NCBI RefSeq assembly: GCF_019059575.1 | Contig: NW_024881711.1 | Coordinates: 682,001 to 746,000 of the forward strand | DNA length: 64,000 bases | Reading direction: 5' to 3' | Origin: Amphibalanus amphitrite | Taxonomy: Eukaryota > Arthropoda > Thecostraca > Balanomorpha > Balanidae | In this document: positions 9,004 to 55,559 of the stretch, piece after piece | How the letters are laid out: every line of letters begins with the position of its first letter | Numbering within the stretch: the first letter of the stretch is position 1 | Program-made: the position numbers and the translations under genes | The notes under the pieces: model-generated | Seen by the model: only the letters and a program-made list of their open reading frames with translations | Told to the model about the DNA's origin: nothing | Database searches by the model: none

Positions 9004-9865
9004 ACCACCGGAGGGCGGCACTATGACTTCAGAGGCGGCACTTTGACTTCAGAGGGCGGCACTATGACTTCAGAGGGCGGCGTTATGACTTCAGAGGGCG
9101 GCGCAATGACTTCAAGGACCTTCACGAAGACTGGAGGGCGGCGCTATGACTTCAGAGGGCGGCACTATGACTTCAGAGGGCGGCGCTATGACTTCAGAGG
9201 GCGTCGCAATGACTTCAAGGAGCTTTACGAAGACTGCGGAGGGCGGCACTATGACTTCAGAGGGCGGCACTATGACTTCAGAGGGCAGCACTATGCTTCA
9301 GAGGGCGGCACTATGACTTCAGAGGGCGGCACTATGACTTCAGAGGGCGGCGCTATGACTTCAGAGGGTGGCACTATGACTTCAGAGAGCGGCGCTTTGA
9401 CTTCAGAGGGCGGCGCAATGACTTCAAGGAGCTTCACGAAGACTGCGGAGGGCGGCACTATGACTTCAGAGGGCGGCACTACGACTTCCGAGGGCGGCGC
9501 TATGACTTCAGAGGGCGTCGCAATGACTTCAAGGAGCTTTACGAAGACTGCGGAGGGCGGCACTATGACTTCAGAGGGCGGCACTATGACTTCAGAGGGC
9601 AGCACTATGCTTCAGAGGGCGGCAATATGACTTCAGAGGGCGGCACTATGACTTCAGAGGGCGGCGCTATGACTTCAGAGGGTGGCACTATGACTTCAGA
9701 GAGCGGCGCTTTGACTTCAGAGGGCGGCGCAATGACTTCAAGGAGCTTCACGAAGACTGCGGAGGCCGGCACTATGACTTCAGAGGGCGGCACTACGACT
9801 TCCGAGGGCGGCATTTCGACTTCCGAGAGCGGCACTACTACTTCAAAGGGTAGCAATATGACTTA
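9004..9865. repeat. 21-bp minisatellite with ~314-bp higher-order unit
   Basis: Tandem copies of about AGGGCGGCACTATGACTTCAG. As 21 is a multiple of three, both strands stay open (plus-strand repeat MTSEGG), which explains long frames without implying a gene. An interrupting variant with GAGCTTTACGAAGACTGCGG begins at 9220 and again at 9534, a spacing of 314 bp (fifteen units less one base). That shows a longer unit was itself duplicated. Confidence 0.9.
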
Positions 9866-10134
9866 AAGTAGCGGTATTTCGAATTAAGGGGCGGCACTCT
9901 GACTTCAGGGAGAGAAGCGACATACTCTGAGGGTTAAATATAAATTCAGATAGTTACTACCAGAGATTATTATGAAATGAGCTTCAAAGAAATGCGGGTC
10001 ATTTCCGTAAAATGCACTTCATCACGTATGGAAAAAAAGCCGCCCTCCGCCGCCTTCGGCGGCGGAGGGGCGGCATTTTTCGATAGGCTAGGGGCATCGG
10101 CCCCCAGATGCCCCCCCCCCTGGATCCGCCCCTG

Positions 10135-26889: not shown

Positions 26890-27051
26890 TTAATCTAAAG
26901 GACGCGTGTATATCACACCACGGGATGCTACGGACACAAAACACTGCCGATGTGTACATCACACCAAGGTTTGATATACACACTACACAGGAGTAGTGCA
27001 GATGTGTACGTGACACCCTGGCAAGTGTGACGTACACATTAGCACGAATTA

Positions 27052-27836
27052 CAGGGTGTCCCAGAAGTCTTGAAGCTTTTTTATTTTTGTCGTGTGACCT
27101 TGCTATGCCACTGATTAAGGTAAATGACGCCTCAAACGAAAGAGAATGAACTGAAATTTTGTATTTTCATGCGTAGAGCACCACTTTAGTCAGGTGGCCC
27201 CCATTGTGAGTCGCACAAGATTGAGCACGAGAGATCACGTTCTTCGCTGCCGCCAAGATCTCCCGGTTTGCGAAACACCGGTGTCGCCATGCCCGTTTCT
27301 GGTCAGCTTCAGAGCCTTATTTCATGAAGCGAGCCAGGACACAGAGATTGGATCTCCGAGAAAACATTAGCAACATAATGATTTACTGATCAGAAAGTCT
27401 CTTGACATGTTTGCACGCATCCATTACGAAAATAAGGCTCAGCTGCTTGAGCGCGCTAAGCAACAGCCCGTTGTAATCCTTTGATTCGTCGCATTATTAT
27501 GGTGCTAAAACAAATATCAACCCGTCGCAAATATATGTCGCTAATATTATGTCGCTCGCTTCAGGGAATAAGACTCTGAAGCTGACAAGAAACGGGCATG
27601 GCGACACCGGTGTTTCGCAAACCGGGAGATCTTGGCGGCAGCGAAGAACGTGATCTCTCGCGCTCGTTCTTGTGCGACTCACAACGGGGGCCACCCGACT
27701 AAAGTGGTGCTCTACGCATGAAAATACAAAATTTCAGTTCATTCTCTTTTGTTTGAGGCATAATTCGCCTTAATCGGTCGCATAGCAAGGTCACACGACA
27801 AAAATAAAAAAGCTTCAAGACTTCTGGGACACCCTG
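27052..27836. mobile_element. Long-TIR MITE with TA target, 785 bp
   Basis: Ends CAGGGTGTCCCAGAAGTC and its inverse, each next to TA (27050-27051, 27837-27838). Inverted arms are about 285 bp (27052-27336, 27553-27836). TA target and end sequence suggest a Tc1/mariner-type mover. No transposase is encoded. Confidence 0.75.
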
Positions 27837-28156
27837 TACTTTAGATCACACCTTTGTGAGTTTTACTGGTGGAAAGTGAAATGTGTACGCAACACCAAGG
27901 TGTGAAAATGGCCAGCACGAAAGTGTGATTTACCTAACAGCGCAAGCCATGAAGTTTAACACACCCGAGCGTTGTAATGTGTTTCATTGGAGTAGTGTGG
28001 GCGTAATAAGATAATTCCATTTTTGACATCCTAAGCCCTTATGATAGTTGCACGTCATTAAAACATCAAAAGACACATAGACATAACCAAACCTTACCTA
28101 ACCTGACCTACTGATTTTTGCCTACCCGTGGATGAGGAAGAAGTTGCTCGCATGAA

Positions 28157-38186: not shown

Positions 38187-41100
38187 AGGGACGTATAAAT
38201 AAACTGGACTGACGATCCCAATGGACCTCCTATGGAAGATAGTGAAGCCGACAAGGCGCCATTTTACGTTGCCAAAAAGCCGTGCTGTGAAAGGTCATCG
38301 AGCCGATACAATTGGAATTGCGTCTAAACGGATGATCGGATCGAGATGCTGGTGGTACCGTTCGACGGGTAATGCTTTGAGGCAGGTGATGATGCATGTC
38401 ACAGGTCATTCGGTGTCACGTGGCGCGTGCCACGTGCCGACAAAGTCAGGAGGGGCAAAAACCTTTAAGCGACGCTCCAAATTAAACGGTGGGCGGCACA
38501 GGTGCCAAATTCACAGGTCACACGTCCCGGTGTTCGACCATTAACATATGGTAAGCTCGGCAGCAGGGGGTGCGGAATGCACGCGCCAGGGGCGAAAAAC
38601 ATGTTTTGAGGAGGCATCCTCCGATTCCGGAAAACCTTGGCCTAGGCACACCAAATTTGGCACACTGACACGACTGGACGAGCGCTTTAAGGCGCTGTTC
38701 AAATAGATGTGCTGAGGTACACGGTGCACGTGCTGTGCACGTGCAAACCTTTTGACGTTGCACTCTGTGTCACATATACGGCAGAGCGGGTAGCGCTAGC
38801 AACCTCAAAGTGCCAAATTTACACAGGCCATCCAGAATGCATTCCCGCATAGTTATTGAGCATATCCATCTCCTGGTGGACCCCGAAGGTGCGCTCTGCA
38901 CGTGCAAAAAATTGTCCGCGCCGGGCGGTGGGGATGCTTGGACACCCCATTTGGATTTATGTAAATATCTCGAAAACGGCGTTGTGTAGCACCGTCGTTT
39001 TTGGCACACCTTTTCATCCATCTTTTTCACACATGCTGCGTAACTTTCAGACTTAGGTCACTCAAGGTTAGGTCATCAGGTTACGTTAATTCGGGCTCCA
39101 AAACTTTTAGCTACCCAGCAACGCAAATTTACGCTACCATCGCCCGGTAGCCCAGCATAGGCATCTTTGTTTCCACGTTGTTTGCGCCTGTAGTGATACT
39201 GTACCGCAATAACCATTATCTTCATCTTTCACCCATAGATGGCAGTAGCAGAGCGCCTGCATCTATGCTGTGCCGCAGTGCTTTTACAATACGAATTGAG
39301 CATTGAGCAAGCGCGGTGTAATACGATTATGTGGTGGCCTGGACGGTGACCGCGGCCAAGAAATGGTTCTAACTTGACTGAGTAGCGGTAAATCAGCGTC
39401 TGATATTAAGTTATTATTACGAGACCATATTTGGCCGGAATCGCTATTCGGCGTATGTCGGCGCGCACTAGCCGCGCGTTTGCTGTCTTTTCGTGGTTTC
39501 AAGCGTTCAAACATGTGATATAATGTTGGTCACATGCAATATGGTGCGTGTCAAGGTCACGTGAAAATTAGGTCAAGGTCAATGACCTTTAATGACCTTG
39601 GTTCACCTTTTCCAGTTTTACATGTTCCTAGGACAATTTTTGGAGCTGATTTCGAATTTAGCATTCAGTTTAACATTTAAGAAGTTATAGTTTTAGAGCC
39701 TTCGATCGTAACATGCTACGACGCCATCAGTGGTGGTTGACACTATGGATAAGCGGCATGACACCTACTGGTTGACCTGACCTGACCTGACCCGACCTGG
39801 CCTAAATGCATGAAAACATCAGCTGTGATAAAAACAAACATGACATTCCTGATAAATGACCCGTAGAACTCGCAACAAACTCAATTTACGAAGTTGAACT
39901 ACGAGTATACATATCAAAAGTGTTTTCAGCGCTCTTGCATGTCTCTACCGAAGGTTACTGTCAAAATCTTGTGGAGGGCTATCATGACCTGAAATAACCC
40001 CAGGACATAAGTAGAAGTCACAGGTGCAATTTCCCGACTGAATTTGTCACGTTTCTCTGCTACCCGTGTCCCGTTATTTGAGTGCATTGTTTAGTATGTT
40101 TATATGAGTTTCGTGCAACGGAAGCGCAGTTTAATTGTCTCCCATTGACTTACCTATCAGGTCGCAAAATCAACAGAACCCTAGGTCAGTGACAGTGAAA
40201 TTCCGAGGTAGAGGTACTTTACGTTTTGTGGTGCTCTTAGTAATCGCTGCCAACGTTTTAGACCAATTGTTCAGTCTGTGTAGCTATGACGGGCACTATA
40301 ACTTTTCCTAAGGTAAGGTCACTTGGACGTAACCTGATGACCTAACCTTGAGTGACCTAAGTCTGAAAGTTACGCAGCATGTGTGAAAAAGATGTATGAA
40401 AAGGTGTGCCAAAAACGACGGCGCTACACAACGCCGTTTTCGAGATATTTACATAAATCCACATGGGGTGTCCAAGCATCCCAACGCCCAGCGCGCACAA
40501 TTTTTTGCACGTGCAGAGCGCACCTTCGGGGTCCACCAGGAGATGGATATGCTCAATAACTATGCGGGAATGCATTCTGGATGGCCTGTGTAAATTTGGC
40601 ACTTTGAGCTTGCTAGCGCTACCCGCTCTGCCGTATATGTGACACAGAGTGCAACGTCAAAAGGTTTGCACGTGCACAGCACGTGCATTGTGTACCTCAG
40701 CACATCTATTTGTACAGCGCCTTAAAGCGCTCGTCCAGTCGTGTCAGTGTGCCAAATTTGGTGTGCCTAGGTCAAGGTTTTCCGGAATCGGAGGATGCCT
40801 CCTCAAAACATGTTTTTCGCCCCTGGCGCGTGCATTCCGCACCCCCTGCTGCCGAGCATAACATATGTTAATGGTCGAACACCGGGACGTGTGACCTGTG
40901 AATTTGGCACCTGTGCCGCCCACCGTTTAATTTGGAGCGTCGCTTAAAGGTTTTTGCCCTTCCTAACTTTGTCGGCACGTGGCACGCGCCACGTGACACC
41001 GAATGACCTGTGACATGCATCATCACCTGCCTCAAAGCATTACCCGTCGAACGGTACCACCAGCATCTCGATACGATCATCCGTTTAGACGCAATTCCAA

Positions 41101-41213
41101 TTGTATTGGCTCGATGACCCTTCAGAGCACGGGTTTTTGGCAACGTAAGATGGCGCCTTGTCGGCTTCACCTGAATGGAGGTGGTTGCGGGTCCAGTTTA
41201 TTTATACGTCCGT
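38187..41213. mobile_element. MULE-like long-TIR element, 3.0 kb
   Basis: Ends GACGTATAAATAAACTGGAC and its inverse. Inverted arms are about 890 bp (38187-39085 and about 40325-41213), and the target duplication is 10 bp. Long TIRs with 9-11-bp duplication fit Mutator-like elements; this assignment is inference as no transposase is seen. The arms include family A-like text (CTCGAAAACGGCG near 38970), and the core 39420-39830 matches family A at 15897-16300. Confidence 0.8.
39090..40325. other. Core of the MULE-like element
   Basis: Holds family A-like sequence with AGGTCA half-sites (39550-39600, 39775-39800). No coding region seen. Confidence 0.5.
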
Positions 41214-41783: not shown

Positions 41784-42173
41784 GCTGAAACCCAAAATAT
41801 AGAATATATTCTTATAAAACAAATTCAAATATGGCGGCCGTTGCGTTAGGCTCCGCCCCCGACTCCGCCCCTTCGTGTGACGTCATCTGTGCTATTGGAC
41901 ACACAGGGAGATAGGGGACGACATGGGCCTGCACAGACGATGATACGTTATGTTAAACGCCGTGCAATTTTTTAATTAGTTCCGACATAATTCCTGAGAA
42001 GTCGTCTTTCCCTGTGGGGCTGTAGGTATGGGCAACTACTAGCTATCAGTGTGAAATCGTAAATAATTTTGATGAAATTGATCATCTGTGAACTTTGGTG
42101 AAATCAATGTGGGCCAACCAGTTTTTTTTCAGTAATTCAGCTAGCAATTCTCGTGCTGTGTTCAAAAACACGT
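41784..42173. other. Unassigned sequence
   Basis: Just before 42174, the text GTAATTCAGCTAGCAATYCTCG matches the inverse of 33175-33215, so both sites share a repeat next to the CAGTGAGGGGC end. Confidence 0.4.
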
Positions 42174-42198
42174 TCACAGTGAGGGGCAACCTTATATA

Positions 42199-42437
42199 CG
42201 AGTAGATGCGCCTAAGAGACTGGTGACCGACAACGAGGGCGTCAAGTGCTGGGGACTGACCGTGATATACGCGGAGCTGTGTGTATCTGCTGCGATCGCT
42301 GCTGTACCGTTCTGGCCGTGTCTGCTGCAGATGGCCGAGCTGCACGTGTATCTGGTGCCGCGGGACAAGTGGTCGGCACCCCGCCGGCTGGCCGAGAGGA
42401 CCTCCAAACAGGACACCATCTCGCTGGGCTTCGTACG
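42199..42437 (+). CDS. Exon-like coding segment, protein not recognised
   Basis: An open frame reads RLVTDNEGVKCWG, then a hydrophobic stretch LCVSAAIAAVPFWPCLLQ, then AELHVYLVPRDKWSAP and ends ISLGFVR at CG|GTAAGC, a good splice donor. Codons end mostly in G or C, unlike the surrounding AT-rich repeats, which favours real host coding sequence. The acceptor is not certain; the frame extends back to about 42181. The hydrophobic part could be a membrane segment. Other frames here are also open because of GC content, so the strand choice rests on codon bias and the donor. Confidence 0.45.
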
Positions 42438-42524
42438 GTAAGCCACCGGCCGCGGCAGCCACTTGAGCCGGAATGCCGCTCTCGCTTCCTTTGTCTGTGC
42501 GCGGGTGCGTGTGAGGAAAACCCA

Positions 42525-42533
42525 CGCAGTTGG
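42525..42533 (+). other. Target-site duplication CGCAGTTGG (left)
   Basis: Perfectly repeated at 46888-46896, bounding the palindrome. Confidence 0.9.
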
Positions 42534-43075
42534 ACGTGCATAAAGTTGCATTATATTCACATTCAGATTCGCGTGCACATTCGCGGACCCCTCAGATTTG
42601 GCTCAAAATTGCACAGCCTATAGATTTTGAGCTCCTGATTCCGAAAATAATGTTTTTATTTCACGCCGTCAAGTGGTTCTCAAAATATTCACATTTGTAT
42701 TACTGCTAACATATTCTGGACCGTAACCCTTATTGGAAAAATCGGACCCCTCCAAACTTTTCAAAAACTCGTGAGTTGATGTAAACATAAGCGCTGATCC
42801 CAAAAAAACTAATTTGTACTTAACGCCGTCCCAAAGTTTTCTCAGGATGAGCATCTAAAGTTCAAGGTCGTTCAAGGTCATGTACCTTTTCTCACATTTT
42901 GGCGCTATTTGACACGTGACAGCTTTATATTTATGATGGACATTCGCACTACCTCCTACAAAAACAATATACTGAAATCCAAGGGACGTTGCTGTACCAA
43001 AATGTAGAAAAAGCGTCAAAACCTCTTTCAAACAGCTAACAGTTAAATACAAGGGATATTCGAACTTGCCCCACA

Positions 43076-44790
43076 TAAAGCAAATTTGTCAGACATGGTC
43101 GGACCCCTCCGATATCGTTCAAAATCTCAGGAATGATGCTCCTTGACCTCCTGAACATGAAAATGGCACTCCCTTTGAACGCCGTCAAGAACTTTTCCAG
43201 ATATACGCATCCATGCACATTCAAATTGCATAGGTGTTGCATATGCACGTTCGGCGGACCCCTCCGATTTCGTTCAAAATCTCAGGAATGATGCTCCTTG
43301 ACCTCCTGAATATGAAAATGGCACTCCCTTTGAACGCCGTCAAGAACTTTTCCAGATATACGCATCCATGCACATTCAAATTGCATAGGTGTTGCATATG
43401 CACGTTCGGCGGACCCCTCCAATTTCGTTCAAAACCACAGGATTGATGCTCCTTGACCTCCTGAATATGAAAATAGTACTCTCTTTGAACGCCGTCAAGA
43501 ACTTTTCCAGATATACGCATCCATGCACATTCAAATTGCATAGGTGTTGCATATGCACGCTCGGCGGACCCCTCCGATTTCGTTCAAAATCTCAGTAATG
43601 ATGCTCCTTGACCTCCTGAACATGAATATGGTACTCCCTTTGAACGCCGTCAAGAACTTTTCCAGATATACGCATATACGCATCAATGCACATTCAAATT
43701 GCATAGGTGTTACATATGCACGTTCGGCGGACCCCTCCGATTTCGTTCAAAATCTCAGGAATGATGCTCCTTGACATCCTGAACATGAAAATAGTACTCC
43801 CTTTGAACGCCGTCAAGAACTTTTCCAGATATACGCATCCATGCACATTCAAACTGCACAGGTGTTGCATATGCACGTTCGCCGGACCCCTCCGATTTCG
43901 TTCAAAATCTCAGGAATGATGCTCCTCGACCTCCTGAACATGAAAATGGTACTCCCTTTGAACGCCGTCAAGAACTTTTCCAGATATACGCATCCATGCA
44001 CATTCAAATTGCATGGGTGTTGCATATACACGTTCGGCGGACCCCTCCGATTTCGTTCAAAATCTCAGGAATGATGCTCCTTGACCTTCTGAACATGAAA
44101 ATGGCACTCCCTTTGAACGCCGTCAAGAACTTTTCCAGATATACGCATCCATGCACATTCAAATTGCATAGGTGTTGCATATGCACGCTCGGCGGACCCC
44201 TCCGATTTCGTTCGAAATCTCAGGAATGATGCTCCTTGACCTCCTGAACATGAAAATGCCACTCCCTTAGAACGCCGTCAATAACTTTTCCAGATATACG
44301 CACCCATGCACAAACAAATTGCATAGGTGTTGTATATGCACGTTCGGCGGACCCCTCCAATTTCGTTCAAAATCACAGGAATGATGCCCCTTGACCTCCT
44401 GAACATGAAAATAGTACTCCCTTTGAACGCCGTCAATAACTTTTCCAGATATACGCACGCATCCATGCACATTCAAAATGCATAGGTGCTGCATATGCAC
44501 GTTCGGCGGACCCCTCCGATTTCGTTTAAAATCTCAGGAATGAGGCTCCTTGACCTCCTGAACATGAAAATAGTACTCCCTTTGAACGCCGTCAAGAACT
44601 TTTCCAGATATGCGCATCAATGCACATTCAAATTGCATAGGTGTTGCATATGCACATTCGGCGGACCCCTCCGATTTCGTTCAACATCACAGGAATGATG
44701 CTCCTTGACCTCCTGAACATGAAAATAGTACTCCCTTTGAACGCCGTCAAGAACTTTTCTAGGTATACGCATCCAAGCACATTTAAATTG
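43076..44790 (+). repeat. 155-bp tandem repeat, left arm
   Basis: About eleven units, each with GCATATGCACGTTCGGCGGA and GATATACGCATCCATGCACA. Successive copies are mostly 155 bp apart (for example CGGACCCC at about 43253, 43408 and 43563). Confidence 0.95.
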
Positions 44791-46330
44791 CAATTTGAAT
44801 GTGCATGAATGCGTATATCTGGAAAAGTTCTTGACGGCGTTCAAAGGGAGTACCATTTTCATGTTCAGGAGGTCAAGGAGCATCATTCCTGAGATTTTGA
44901 ACGAAATCGGAGGGGTCCGCCGAACGTGCATATGTAACACCTATGCAATTTGAATGTGCATAGATGCGTATATCTGGAAAAGTTCTTGACGGCGTTCAAA
45001 GGGAGTACCATATTCATGTTCAGGAGGTCAAGGAGCATCATTACTGAGATTTTGAACGAAATCGGAGGGGTCCGCCGAGCGTGCATATGCAACAATGCAA
45101 CACCTATGCAATTTGAATGTGCATGGATGCGTATATCTGGAAAAGTTCTTGACGGCGTTCAAAGAGAGTACTATTTTCATATTCAGGAGGTCAAGGAGCA
45201 TCAATCCTGTGGTTTTGAACGAAATTGGAGGGGTCCGCCGAACGTGCATATGCAACACCTATGCAATTTGAATGTGCATGGATGCGTATATCTGGAAAAG
45301 TTCTTGACGGCGTTCAAAGGGAGTGCCATTTTCATGTTCAGAAGGTCAAGGACCATCATTCCTGAGATTTTGAACGAAATCGGAGGGGTCCGCCGAACGT
45401 GTATATGCAACACCTATGCAATTTGAATGTGTATGGATGCGTATATCTGGAAAAGTTCTTGACGGCGTTCAAAGGGGGTACCATTTTCATGTTCAGGAGG
45501 TCGAGGAGCATCATTCCTGAGATTTTGAACGAAATCGGAGGGGTCCGCCGAACGTGCATATGCAACACCTATGCAATTTGAATGTGCATGGATGCGTATC
45601 TCTGGAAAAGTTCTTGACGGCGTTCAAAGTGAGTACCATTTTCATGTTCAGGAGGTCGAGGAGCATCATTTCTGAGATTTTGAACGAAATCGGAGGGGTC
45701 CGCCGAACGTGCATATGCAACACCTATGCAATTTGAATGTGCATGGATGCGTATATCTGGAAAAGTTCTTGACGGCGTTCAAAGAGAGTACTGTTTTCAT
45801 GTTCAGGAGGCCAAGGAGCATCATTCCTGAGATTTTGAACGAAATCGGAGGGGTCCGCCGAACGTGCATATGCAACACCTATGCAATTTTAATGTGCATG
45901 GATGCGTATATCTGGAAAAGTTCTTGACGGCGTTCAAAGGGAGTGCCATTTTCATGTTCAGAAGGTCAAGGAGCATCATTCCTGAGATTTTGAACGAAAT
46001 CGGAGGGGTCCGCCGAACGTGTATATGCAACACCTATGCAATTTGAATGTGCATGGATGCGTATATCTGGAAAAGTTCTTGACGGCGTTCAAAAGGAGTG
46101 TCATTTTCATGTTCAGGAGGTCGAGAAGCATCATTCCTGAGATTTTGAACGAAATCGGAGGGGTCCGCCGAACGTGCATATGCAACACCTATGCAATTTG
46201 AATGTGCATGGATGCGTATGTCTGGAAAAGTTCTTGACGGCGTTCAAAGGGAGTGCCATTTTCATGTTCAGGAGGTCAAGGAACATCATTCCTGAGATTT
46301 TGAACGATATCGGAGGGGTCCGACCATGTC
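44791..46330 (-). repeat. 155-bp tandem repeat, right arm
   Basis: The same units in reverse orientation, about ten copies, beginning exactly at the centre of the palindrome. Confidence 0.95.
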
Positions 46331-46887
46331 CGACAAATTTGCTTTATCTGTGGCAAATTTGAATATCCCTTGTATTTAACTGTTAGCTGTATGAAAGAGG
46401 TTTTGACGCTTTTTTTACATTTTGGTACAGCAACGCCCCTTGGATTTCAGTATATTGTTTTTGTAGGAGGTAGTGCGAATGTCCATCATAAATATAAAGC
46501 TGTCACGTGTCAAATAGCGCCAAAATGTGAGAAAAGGTACATGACCTCGAACGACCTTGAACTTTAGATGCTCATCCTGAGAAAACTATGGGACGGCGTT
46601 AAATACAAACTAGTTTTTTGGGATCAGCGCTTATGTTTACATCAACTCACGAGTTTTTAAAAAGTTTGGAGGGGTCCGATTTTTCCAATAAGGGTTACGG
46701 TCCAGAATATGTTAGCAGTAATACAAATGTGAATATTTTGAGAACCACTTGACGGCGTGAAATAAAAACATGATTTTCGCAATCAGGAGCTCAAAATCTA
46801 TAAGCTGTGCAATTTTGAGCCAAATCTGAGGGGTCCGCGAATGTGCACGCGAATCTGAATGTGAATATAATGCAACTTTATGCACGT

Positions 46888-46896
46888 CGCAGTTGG
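46888..46896 (+). other. Target-site duplication CGCAGTTGG (right)
   Basis: Matches 42525-42533. Confidence 0.9.
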
Positions 46897-47125
46897 TTAT
46901 GTTTGTCGCCAGACAGGCAAAAAAGAAGACACGTCAGGGGCAGACTGGTGTTCGATTCACCCAGGGGGCGTCGAAGTCTAGTTCCTAGTTCCTACCAACC
47001 TGGCACTCCCGTGCCTACGTCACCACGAGGACGCCCGAGGGCATTTACATGTTGAAGATAGGGAAAGTTGCCATAGTTTAGAGCCGCCTGGAGGGCAACC
47101 TTGAGATAGATAAGACGAAATCGCA

Positions 47126-47400
47126 GGAGATGATGATGAACGGGTTTATCGAAACTTGATTGGATGAGCCTACGGTAATAGCGATTTTAGCGTGTGCATT
47201 CATTGTTCATAGTGGTGTGAAATGTGGTTAGGGTACGACCGACAACCCGTCGGGCTCGGGGCGAATTTCGCACTGGGGTACTCAAAATTTGAAGTAAGAC
47301 TTTTCCATGAGTTTTGAAGGTATGGATAAGTTCTAAAAATCCGGTTCTCCTTATCCGGGTCATTAACTCCATATGGCCCAGGAAAGCTGGCACACTACCT
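47126..47400. mobile_element. Family C right-end fragment
   Basis: Matches 6910-7194 closely and ends GGCACACTACCT before TTAA at 47401-47404. The left part is replaced by unrelated sequence. Confidence 0.7.
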
Positions 47401-52192: not shown

Positions 52193-53244
52193 TAAGAGAG
52201 TTAAGCGTCGTGAGGAATATCATCATGATGATTATGAGCATATTTGATAGACCGAATCCTCAATATAATCTGAATAAAAATGACAAATTAGCAAAATTCG
52301 GGTATATTTGATCACAGATCTTTGTCAAACGATACCAGCAGGCGCCACAATTGTAGATGTCAAAATACTTTTTGTTCAGTACACATGCACAACAGTAGAT
52401 ATATCCTCATGGAAAAGATTTATGGTTGGTAATTCTAAAAGTCGCAGCAGTCAAATACATATAATACACGGAAACCCTATACACAAGATTAAAGTGCGTG
52501 TGTGCTTATACATATACGAATTAAAGGTGTTACATTGCGTTTGCAAAACAATTAAATGGGCAGCATGTTACACTTTTACCCTGGGCACAGTAAGGGCACC
52601 AGTGTTCCAGAATTATATTTTGGTTTGGGTGTCAGAGGGGTAAATTATTCAGTTGCCAGGGAGATGAGAGTGGAAAATTACCGGTCAGATATAGCTAAAA
52701 ACAGGTGGGAGTGGTAAGCATGGAGGGGAGATGGATTGATAGCATACATCACCACACACATGAGGTAGAATGTAGCTTGCATATTACATGAATCATTATG
52801 ATGTTTACTACCCTCCTCGTTTTTGATGTTGGGAGTGGAAAATCGCTCTCAAAGATTTGAAATGAGAGTGGAAAATTGTCATCATTTGGATGTTGTTTCC
52901 CACCCAAATCGACAAATTTTGGGACATTGAAGGGCACATACGACATGTACACAGTGAATGAACAATTAAATGAGCATATTGCACCTAAATGAACATTATA
53001 TACATAAATGAGTACATATGAGCATTGAGCATATTACATTTTACTATACTCATACCTTGGACAAAGTTAGGACATATACAACATGTATGCAAAACAAAAG
53101 TAACATACGCAATCACTTTTTAACGTGGTAGGCTCGTGAAAAAAGCTAACCTACTTTGGAAGTAGCTGCCAAGAGGTGCTGTTATCGTTAATAGCTGTCA
53201 TCCTGTCATCCTGTTAAGCAGGACGATTAAGCAGGACGATTGTG

Positions 53245-53390
53245 TAATTGTTAAGCCTTCAGACAAATGTAAGGGCCTAGTCATCATGGATAAGACAGAT
53301 TATTTGGACAAAGCGCAGGTGATCACAAACACTTATGAAAAGATTGATCGCAACCCCACTGCTAAAACAGAGGCTAGCACCAAAAAGGTC
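53245..53390 (+). pseudogene. PLE reverse transcriptase fragment, part 1
   Basis: Reads VKPSDKCKGLVIMDKTDYLD and NTYEKIDRNPTAKTEA, the first conserved block of PLE reverse transcriptases. It breaks at the 13-bp duplication CACCAAAAAGGTC and continues at 54442. Confidence 0.75.
53378..53390 (+). other. 13-bp target duplication CACCAAAAAGGTC (left)
   Basis: Identical to 54429-54441. It lies in PLE coding sequence, which is continuous without the insert. Confidence 0.85.
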
Positions 53391-53499
53391 TGAGCGTGAG
53401 ATGATGTTTTTCGTACTCCAGCGTAGACGGGTAGCCATACGGCTTCCACGGTAGACAGTGATGACATCAGTCATCTTTTGCAAGCTCGTTATAGAATTT

Positions 53500-53571
53500 G
53501 GGCTGTACGGGGACTCGAAACCCGGGCCTTTGGATTAGCGCTCCAATGCTCTACCTCTGAGCTATACAGAC
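53500..53571 (-). tRNA. tRNA-like core 1 (probably pseudo)
   Basis: Folds as a cloverleaf: D stem GCTC/GAGC, anticodon stem TTGGA/TCCAA, T loop TTCGAGT. Loop GCGCTAA would give anticodon GCT (Ser), but position 33 is C rather than U and there is no long Ser variable arm. A T-stem mismatch is present in this copy. Confidence 0.5.
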
Positions 53572-53625
53572 CAAGTACTTTAACGAGCTTTAAGACCAAG
53601 TACTTAAAGCTCGTTAAAGTACTTG

Positions 53626-53697
53626 GTCTGTATAGCTCAGAGGTAGAGCATTGGAGCGCTAATCCAAAGGCCCGGGGTTCGAGTCCCCGTACAGCCC
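53626..53697 (+). tRNA. tRNA-like core 2 (probably pseudo)
   Basis: Same as core 1 with a perfect T stem CGGGG/CCCCG and one acceptor-stem mismatch. Box A TAGCTCAGAGGTAGAGC and box B GGTTCGAGTCC are intact, so RNA polymerase III transcription is plausible. Confidence 0.55.
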
Positions 53698-53783
53698 AAA
53701 TTCTTTAACGAGCTTGCAAAAGATGACTGATGTCATCACTGTCTACCGTGGAAGCCGTATGGCTACCCGTCTACGCTGGAGTA

Positions 53784-54115
53784 TATAATACTGAACGAGG
53801 CCGGTGTAAATAAATTTTCAAGACCGAGGTCCTTACTGGTTTTTTGAACGAGGCCGAAGGCCGAGTTCAAAAATCAGTAAGGACTGAGGTCTTGAAAATT
53901 TATCACCGGCCGAGTTTGGTATGTATTTTACTGTATGCCAACGATGAATTTATTTTCTGGACCGAAGCTCTTAGCCGACTTAGGAACGAGACCATCCCAA
54001 AATGTTCGCTTAAGTGCATTCTGGTAATGCATTTTTGACCGTGGTCAATTTGCTTACACCAGTTATTACCACACCCCTCTGGCTAATGTATTTGAATAGG
54101 CCAGGCATACAGTAA
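53784..54115. mobile_element. 332-bp MITE, copy 2
   Basis: Inserted in the tail of tRNA-like unit 2. TA at 53782-53783 and 54116-54117 is the duplicated target, and the third unit shows the uninterrupted sequence GGAGTACGAAAAAC. Confidence 0.85.
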
Positions 54116-54214
54116 TACGAAAAACATCATCTCACGCTCTCAGTCCCAGCGGATAAAAACAACACCTAAGAATGATCCGCATAAAACTTGGCAGAAAGCT
54201 CGTTAAAGTACTTG

Positions 54215-54286
54215 GTCTGTATAGCTCAGAGGTAGAGCATTGGAGCGCTAATCCAAAGGCCCGGGGTTCGAGTCCCCGTACAGCCC
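54215..54286 (+). tRNA. tRNA-like core 3 (probably pseudo)
   Basis: Identical by eye to core 2. Confidence 0.55.
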
Positions 54287-54428
54287 AAATTCTTTAACGA
54301 GCTTGCAAAAGATGACTGATGTCATCACTGTCTACCGTGGAAGCCGTATGGCTACCCGTCTACGCTGGAGTACGAAAAACATCATCTCACGCTCTCAGTC
54401 CCAGCGGATAAAAACAACACCTAAGAAT

Positions 54429-54441
54429 CACCAAAAAGGTC
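54429..54441 (+). other. 13-bp target duplication CACCAAAAAGGTC (right)
   Basis: Matches 53378-53390. Confidence 0.85.
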
Positions 54442-54674
54442 ATAGCACAAACACTTAAAGATAAGGTAGGTCAAGACATTGTGGACATCCTACGCCCACC
54501 ATTCTCGCTGCGCAGAACTATACGGCCTGCCTAAAACTCACAAGAGAGGCATTCCTCTGAGACCTATTGTGTCTGCCATAGATGATCCTCTGAATAGACT
54601 ATCATGGCTATTAGAGCAGGTCATTTCCCGGCTACTTCAGTACGTGCCTGCCTGGCTGAATCCATCGCCATCCG
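54442..54674 (+). pseudogene. PLE reverse transcriptase fragment, part 2
   Basis: After a small frame change it reads AELYGLPKTHKRGIPLRPIV and NRLSWLLEQVISRLLQYV, typical of PLE RT. It stops where the inverted arm begins; the catalytic YxDD part is missing. Confidence 0.8.
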
Positions 54675-55559
54675 CGACAGGATGCCAGCTATTAACGATA
54701 ACAGCACCTCTTGGCAGCTACCTCCAATGTAGGTTAGCTTTTTTCACGAGCCTACCACGTTAAAAGGTGATTGCGTATATTACTTTTGTTTTGCATACAT
54801 GTTGCATACGTCCTAACTTTGTCCAGGGTATGAGTATAGTAAAATGTAATATGCTCATATGTACTCATTTATGTATATAATGTTCATTTATGTGCAATAT
54901 GCTCATTTAATTGTTCATTCACTGTGTACATGTCGTATGTGCCCTAACTGTGCCCAGGGTAAAAGTATAACATGCTGCCCATTTAATTGTTTTGCAAACG
55001 CATTGTAACACCTTAAATTCGTATATGTATAAGCACACACGCACTTCAATCTTGTGTATAGGTTTTTCCGTGTATTATATGTATTTGACTGCTGCGACTT
55101 TTAGAATTACCAACCATAAATCTTTTCCATGAGGATATATCTACTGTTGTGCATGTGTACTGAACAAAAATTATTTTGACATCTACAATTGTGGCGCCTG
55201 CTGGTATCGTTTGACAAAGATCTGTGATCGAATATACCCGAATTTTGCTAATTTGTCATTTTTATTCAGATTATATTGAGGATTCGGTCAATCAAATATG
55301 CAAGTTAATGAATTATCATGAAAGTGATATTGCTCGGTTCAGAAAGAGCGAAAACGAATATCTACCAAATTTCGCCAAAAAATAATCACCGGTTTTCAAT
55401 ATATTAGACTTTTACTTTTGTTTACTTTTTGGATCTCTCCTGTCTTCTTTTTCTCGTCCTCGGTTCTCGGCAGTGGAAGTGATTGTCCGTCGATGATGCT
55501 AACCACCCTCGCTATCGCATCTAAAGCCCCATCTACCTCCCTACTTGGAATTAATTTCG

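Follow-up and report, generated by a model that had tools for sequence, protein, structure and literature searches.

In the Foldback elements FB/NOF of Drosophila and TU of the sea urchin, the inverted repeats consist of short tandem units, much shorter than 155 bp, and the target duplications are about 9 and 8 bp, respectively; some FB copies carry a NOF-type core, and a middle domain is not regarded here as a defining feature of all Foldback elements. Among Foldback elements, it is above all Tetris of Drosophila virilis that appears as the closest known relative of the family described here. Both have long inverted repeats composed of an outer flanking domain, part of which is itself unit-like, and satellite-sized tandem units (220 bp in Tetris), both lack an ORF, and according to the description of Tetris its duplications are of 8–10 bp, its transposase was not found, and two of its allelic copies are one unit apart (3 versus 4 in the left arm) (PMC4079207). 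Long Tetris arrays between two flanking domains are visible by fiber-FISH, and its authors considered that larger arrays may have disrupted transposition (PMC4079207).

Tm1 of root-knot nematodes, a Mutator/Foldback element, is alike in having composite inverted repeats whose internal tandem units vary in number, arms of different length and mostly 9-bp duplications, but its units, as described, are only ~14 bp long, and a FLYWCH+MULE (Phantom) transposase lies inside one Tm1 member, whereas none was found with the ends of the family studied here (PMC3169594). Galileo of Drosophila likewise has long, internally repetitive inverted repeats, with ~210-bp tandem units in one group and arms that vary independently, but it is described as having a P-superfamily transposase, 7-bp duplications and at most a few units (PMC3573991).

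The window, that is, the whole 64,000-nucleotide stretch of Amphibalanus amphitrite DNA that was analysed, contains a palindromic element with the following features.

42525..42533, no strand: left copy of the 9-bp target site duplication CGCAGTTGG, read from the sequence
42534..46887, no strand: whole element, 4,354 bp, with CGCAGTTGG duplicated on both sides
42534..43099, plus strand: left terminal outer domain, 566 bp, its first 84 bp perfectly inverted at the opposite end
43100..44790, plus strand: left array of 155-bp units, 11 matches longer than 100 bp, 10 of them full
44757..44822, plus strand: asymmetric palindrome centre with the junction at 44790/44791, one of 20 genomic matches at up to three mismatches
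44791..46322, minus strand: right inverted array of 155-bp units, 10 matches longer than 100 bp, 8 of them full
46323..46887, minus strand: right terminal outer domain, 565 bp, 97% identical to the left domain
46888..46896, no strand: right copy of the target site duplication CGCAGTTGG, read from the sequence

The element begins with ACGTGCATAAAG at 42534 and ends with its inverse at 46887. The arms, of 2,257 and 2,097 bp and thus about one unit apart, are 94.8% identical over 2,110 columns, their outermost 84 bp being a perfect inversion, and they meet without a spacer, with TTTAAATTG directly followed by CAATTTGAA. An earlier note, made from the window's letters, had pointed out these ends, the perfect 9-bp duplication, the spacerless centre at 44790/44791 and the difference of about one unit between the arms, all of which we confirm. 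It had also taken the palindrome to be made entirely of satellite; Tandem Repeats Finder shows that 155-bp arrays (43100-44792, 10.8 copies; 44789-46322, 9.8 copies) indeed form most of it, but the outer ~566 bp of each arm are a separate domain. Bases 41–161 of this domain are a diverged unit (66% over 122 bp, E 1e-12), and the rest is not recognisably unit; the 155-bp unit may have been recruited from the subterminal part of the domain. A search of window positions 42000-47400 against Rfam gave no match at the gathering threshold. A possible exon between a splice-like AG and GTAAG lies at 42331-42437, ~95 bases upstream of the insertion, and judging from the sequence the insertion site may be an intron.

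We conclude that the feature is very probably a non-autonomous Foldback-type DNA transposon whose terminal inverted repeats each consist of an outer domain and an inward array of 155-bp units, with the two arrays head to head, and which would be moved in trans by a transposase that is most likely of the MULE/Phantom type.

In a genome of 807,550,619 bases on 2,644 contigs, the first 12 bases of the end occur 172 times against 62 for a reversed control, and for a longer version of 27 bases the counts are 66 and 0, so that chance is excluded. The search for such ends with 9-bp duplications, which the earlier note had proposed, revealed 28 paired elements, 3,294–20,991 bp in length, among which two, on contigs C773 and C1528, have common flanks. 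We read 21 copies, namely the window element and 20 fetched pairs. All 21 are inverted arrays of the 155-bp unit, that is, long terminal inverted repeats with internal tandem repeats as in Foldback elements, and as in these the number of units varies between arms and copies, from 4 to 35 per arm and from 13 to 54 per element (counting matches longer than 100 bases). The distinct outer domain, which takes up ~566 bp of each arm in the window element, also ends the other copies, although it is split by later inserts in L027 and L028, and the tip of the family reads ACGTGCATA(A/T)AGTTGCAT.

A perfect 9-bp target duplication, within the 8–10-bp range of the Tetris and Tm1 type, flanks 18 of the 21 copies; it is different in each, and across copies the duplications have no clear consensus. 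L031 and L036, counted as one insertion, have a duplication matching at 8 of 9 bases. No duplication was found at L023, which may be a recombinant. The left flanks of L022 and L023 have 183 bases of one repeat in common (97.3% identity) and end near each other within that repeat. Inspection by eye indicates that L019, L027, L028, L031 and L032 hold long foreign stretches that resemble later-inserted mobile elements.

The arms join at a common unit position in 15 of the 21 copies. The exceptions are L021 and L022, which have one and the same different centre, and L026, L028, L033 and L034, where the centre is altered or slightly deleted; that of L026 is a 69-bp stretch of simple sequence. The 66-base centre is asymmetric and has 20 genomic matches at up to three mismatches (11 forward and 9 reverse; control, 0), all on contigs that carry the ends of the window element. 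Given an asymmetric centre common to 20 loci, a single origin of the palindrome, which has since been copied as such, is most likely. Tetris is described as having a middle domain (PMC4079207), whereas the window family has none: 15 of the 21 copies are head to head, and small or altered centres, with no middle domain conserved among them, are found in the other six.

These observations bear on three other ways in which such palindromes could come about. Local inverted duplication of a one-armed element might have produced them independently at each locus, in keeping with arm lengths that vary widely between copies; however, the same asymmetric centre recurs in both orientations at 20 loci, and the centre is different or damaged in no more than 6 of the 21 copies, two of which (L021 and L022) have theirs in common, making independent formation highly improbable. 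Long palindromes without a spacer are a known artefact of long-read libraries, and the structure could be nothing but an assembly fold-back in which one arm was read twice. We give this practically no credence, because the arms in the window differ by one unit and by ~5% of bases, both ends are found with matching duplications in 18 of 21 copies at different places, and elsewhere the arms are very unequal (L033, for example, has arms of 13 and 4 units, and L035 of 33 and 10). The bulk of each copy is satellite, so a pre-existing inverted array, being primary, could have acquired transposon ends later. This appears very unlikely, given that the matches to the unit that were listed all lie, by eye, in or beside elements, that the outer domain itself holds a diverged unit and that the centre is common to loci.

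The choice of superfamily is less clear-cut. Foldback architecture arose in several superfamilies, Galileo, with its 7-bp duplications, being a P element in the account of that family (PMC3573991), and the one copy that was read of a third palindromic family (see below) has an 8-bp duplication; for the window family, membership of the P or hAT superfamily is therefore conceivable, if unlikely. Against it, the duplication in 18 of 21 copies is of 9 bp, which is given as a common size for MULE transposases (PMC3169594), and a Phantom-type copy in the same genome, L044, also sits between 9-bp copies, GTTCGTATA. We return to the Mutator assignment, which was made in the earlier note and which we find plausible only: the 9-bp duplications agree with the 8–11 bp, mostly 9 bp, expected of MULE/Phantom elements, but none of 111 matches to the MULE domain (PF10551) lies inside the 48 pairs (28 of the window family and 20 of a second family; 150 of 204 candidates scored). 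By eye, a search with Phantom-like proteins similarly gave no match between element ends (0 of 93; 92 of 466 candidates scored), and the copies are gene-free.

Phantom-type transposases with FLYWCH and MULE domains are present in the genome, within elements of other tips. L043 and L044 are such elements, with tips of short diverged repeats, and ends matching those of the window family were not seen at either, nor at the SWIM-type MULE L049 or the further MULE locus L050. Long pairs were considered as autonomous partners and set aside; their interiors, read in part, proved to hold a gag-type ORF in C133 (by eye), BEL/Pao-like and mariner-like ORFs in C947 (by eye) and unclassified sequence in C44 and C149. 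The 9-bp duplication and the precedent of other Foldback elements make Mutator/Phantom machinery likely, and our best guess, by analogy, is that a Mutator (MULE/Phantom) transposase acting in trans moves the family. Such a transposase, supplied from elsewhere and most likely of this type, would bind the terminal ~60 bp and move the entire palindrome, inserting it with a 9-bp stagger.

Several comparisons speak to mobility. For L034, the joined flanks match L006 2110-2709 at 547 of 604 bases with a single copy of ATTTAATTG, an empty site that is paralogous. L032 is the counterpart of the L036 site, but L036 has 24 extra bases beside its right end, so this is not a clean insertion. For the window copy, an empty site was not found: among the 40 of 217 candidates that were scored, the joined flanks matched only their own two halves and a repeat that belongs to the right flank. 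Two copies on different contigs, L019 and L027, have different target duplications, and no match between their 600-bp flanks was obtained at E 1e-8; with later inserts removed, they are the same palindrome of 12 + 25 units in mirror orientation, separated over 6,842 columns by 12 mismatches and three gaps (17, 10 and 8 bases). The two shorter gaps coincide with the joints left by the removal of later inserts and look like residual target duplications of these inserts. A 37-unit palindrome that is present at unrelated sites with as few as 12 mismatches in 6.8 kb has moved whole and recently. L022, with 54 units, has an intact 9-bp duplication, and together with the 37-unit twins it indicates that a complete inverted array can be delivered in one step. 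Arrays of tens of units still move, so that long arrays would not abolish transposition; arms of up to 35 units and the recent move of a 37-unit palindrome set this family apart from Tetris as described (PMC4079207). The view of the element in the earlier note, as transposon-like with satellite arrays for its inverted repeats, is thus borne out by the 9-bp duplications, an empty site and a recent move, except that the repeats are not satellite throughout. At L002 1479-1512, an end is reduced to its last 34 bases and flanked on either side by CCGCCGC; from its sequence, this remnant may have been left behind as a footprint when an element was imperfectly excised.

Changes in unit number can be followed in L031 and L036, whose flanks are identical for 600 bp on each side and whose unit numbers differ by exactly one; the pair may represent two haplotypes or stem from a recent duplication. 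The breakpoint lies at element bases 631-677, within the unit next to the outer domain; left of the later insert in L031 there is no other mismatch, and the right 2,865 bases are identical. This change adjoins the outer domain, which argues against growth from the centre. A unit-by-unit comparison, as suggested in the earlier note, was made by scoring divergence from the consensus for 611 units of 21 copies: divergence does not fall towards the centre, the mean being 0.018–0.029 in every position class. The contrast that had been noticed between diverged outer and similar inner units therefore holds between outer domain and array, without a gradient inside the array, and the proposal that the array grows or homogenises from its centre is not supported, given the inherited single centre, the one observed unit change beside the outer domain and the flat divergence.

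Units diverge by ~3.9% on average within elements and by 4.4% between them. The nearest neighbour of a unit is in the same element in 30% of cases (5.5% expected) and in the same arm in 23% (3.0% expected), as calculated for 581 units, a set that includes the near-twins L019 and L027 but not L031. Between elements, units that occupy the same outer position resemble each other more than other units do at positions 0–4 but not at positions 5–7. The two tips of one element differ by 0.0244 compared with 0.0310 in random pairings, with none of 20,000 permutations as low (18 elements). Tips are not sorted by the side of the centre on which they lie (A-A 2.9%, B-B 3.0%, A-B 3.0%), a weak comparison in which sides were scored automatically, L025 is apparently reversed and damaged-centre copies are unreliable. 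The arms might convert each other or cross over, which would yield similar tips without sorting by side, and unit number would change via unequal exchange or slippage.

A second family, with ends ACGTGCATATAGTTGCATCATA (47 occurrences; control, 0), forms 20 pairs of 4,305–26,198 bp. The one pair that was read, C233:743899-757224 (L041-L042), is 13,326 bp long with the duplication CTATTAGGC, and its arms comprise 23 and 28 units of 154 bp, 85–88% identical to the window unit, around a core of 353-bp repeats. Of its first 60 bases, 57 agree, by eye, with the window element, compared with 76% identity over the terminal 532; a tip conserved beyond the rest of the end is expected if the tip is the part that is recognised. 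On scoring 40 of 97 candidates, at least 358 genomic matches to the 353-bp repeat were found. A check of 23 of the listed places, on 22 contigs, put 18 inside pairs of the second family and 5 within 1.9–10.9 kb of an unpaired end; among the matches listed, both orientations are seen, by eye, on 14 of the 22 contigs, so that the 353-bp core itself is often inverted.

The third palindromic family has unrelated tips, GGTACTCTCTTAGCAGACGTCACCCC (34 genomic matches; control, 0). Its copy at L028 616-2375, 1,760 bp of inverted 144-bp arrays with the 8-bp duplication TAAAGTTG, lies inserted within L028, itself a copy of the window family. Ends with up to 3 mismatches in 22 bases number 135 (100 of them listed; control, 7). 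Of these, 68 at 0 mismatches, 10 at 1 and the 47 of the second family account for 125, so that no further family with near-identical tips is apparent.

By eye, all matches to the 155-bp unit that were listed, part of at least 965 (38 of 275 candidate areas scored), lie in or beside an element. Units of Tetris are described as also forming satellite-like arrays (PMC4079207), whereas free 155-bp arrays were not seen among the matches listed. Accordingly, the ideas that the unit is a dispersed satellite and that the element is a route by which satellites spread stand insofar as units are dispersed by the element; the seeding of arrays independent of it was not seen among the matches listed. With moderate confidence, we propose a wider reading, in which satellite arrays in this genome are dispersed whole by transposition: several Foldback families, of which at least two are unrelated, would be self-inverted satellite cassettes, one with two different satellites nested in each arm; each would derive from one founder palindrome, and arrays of tens of units would still move intact. 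What is new compared with known Foldback elements is the lack of a middle domain, still-transposing arms of up to 35 units and a traceable centre, together with the fact that the design recurs both in the sister family, which has two nested satellites, and in the unrelated third one. With regard to how satellite arrays arrive at new chromosomal sites, a complete inverted array is here transferable in one step; the window family, with its common centre, unit-number changes and sister families, provides a natural series for the study of array change after delivery.

Other repeats in the window include a 2.9-kb element at 38242-41170 with 845-bp inverted ends (97.4% identical), a 3.1-kb stretch at 52238-55301 with three nested pairs of inverted segments (94–98% identical) and a short stretch at 27050-27838 with 285-bp inverted ends starting with TACAGGGTGTCCC. 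A 21-bp tandem array occupies 9011-9908, with a higher-order period of 314 bp over 9011-9812.
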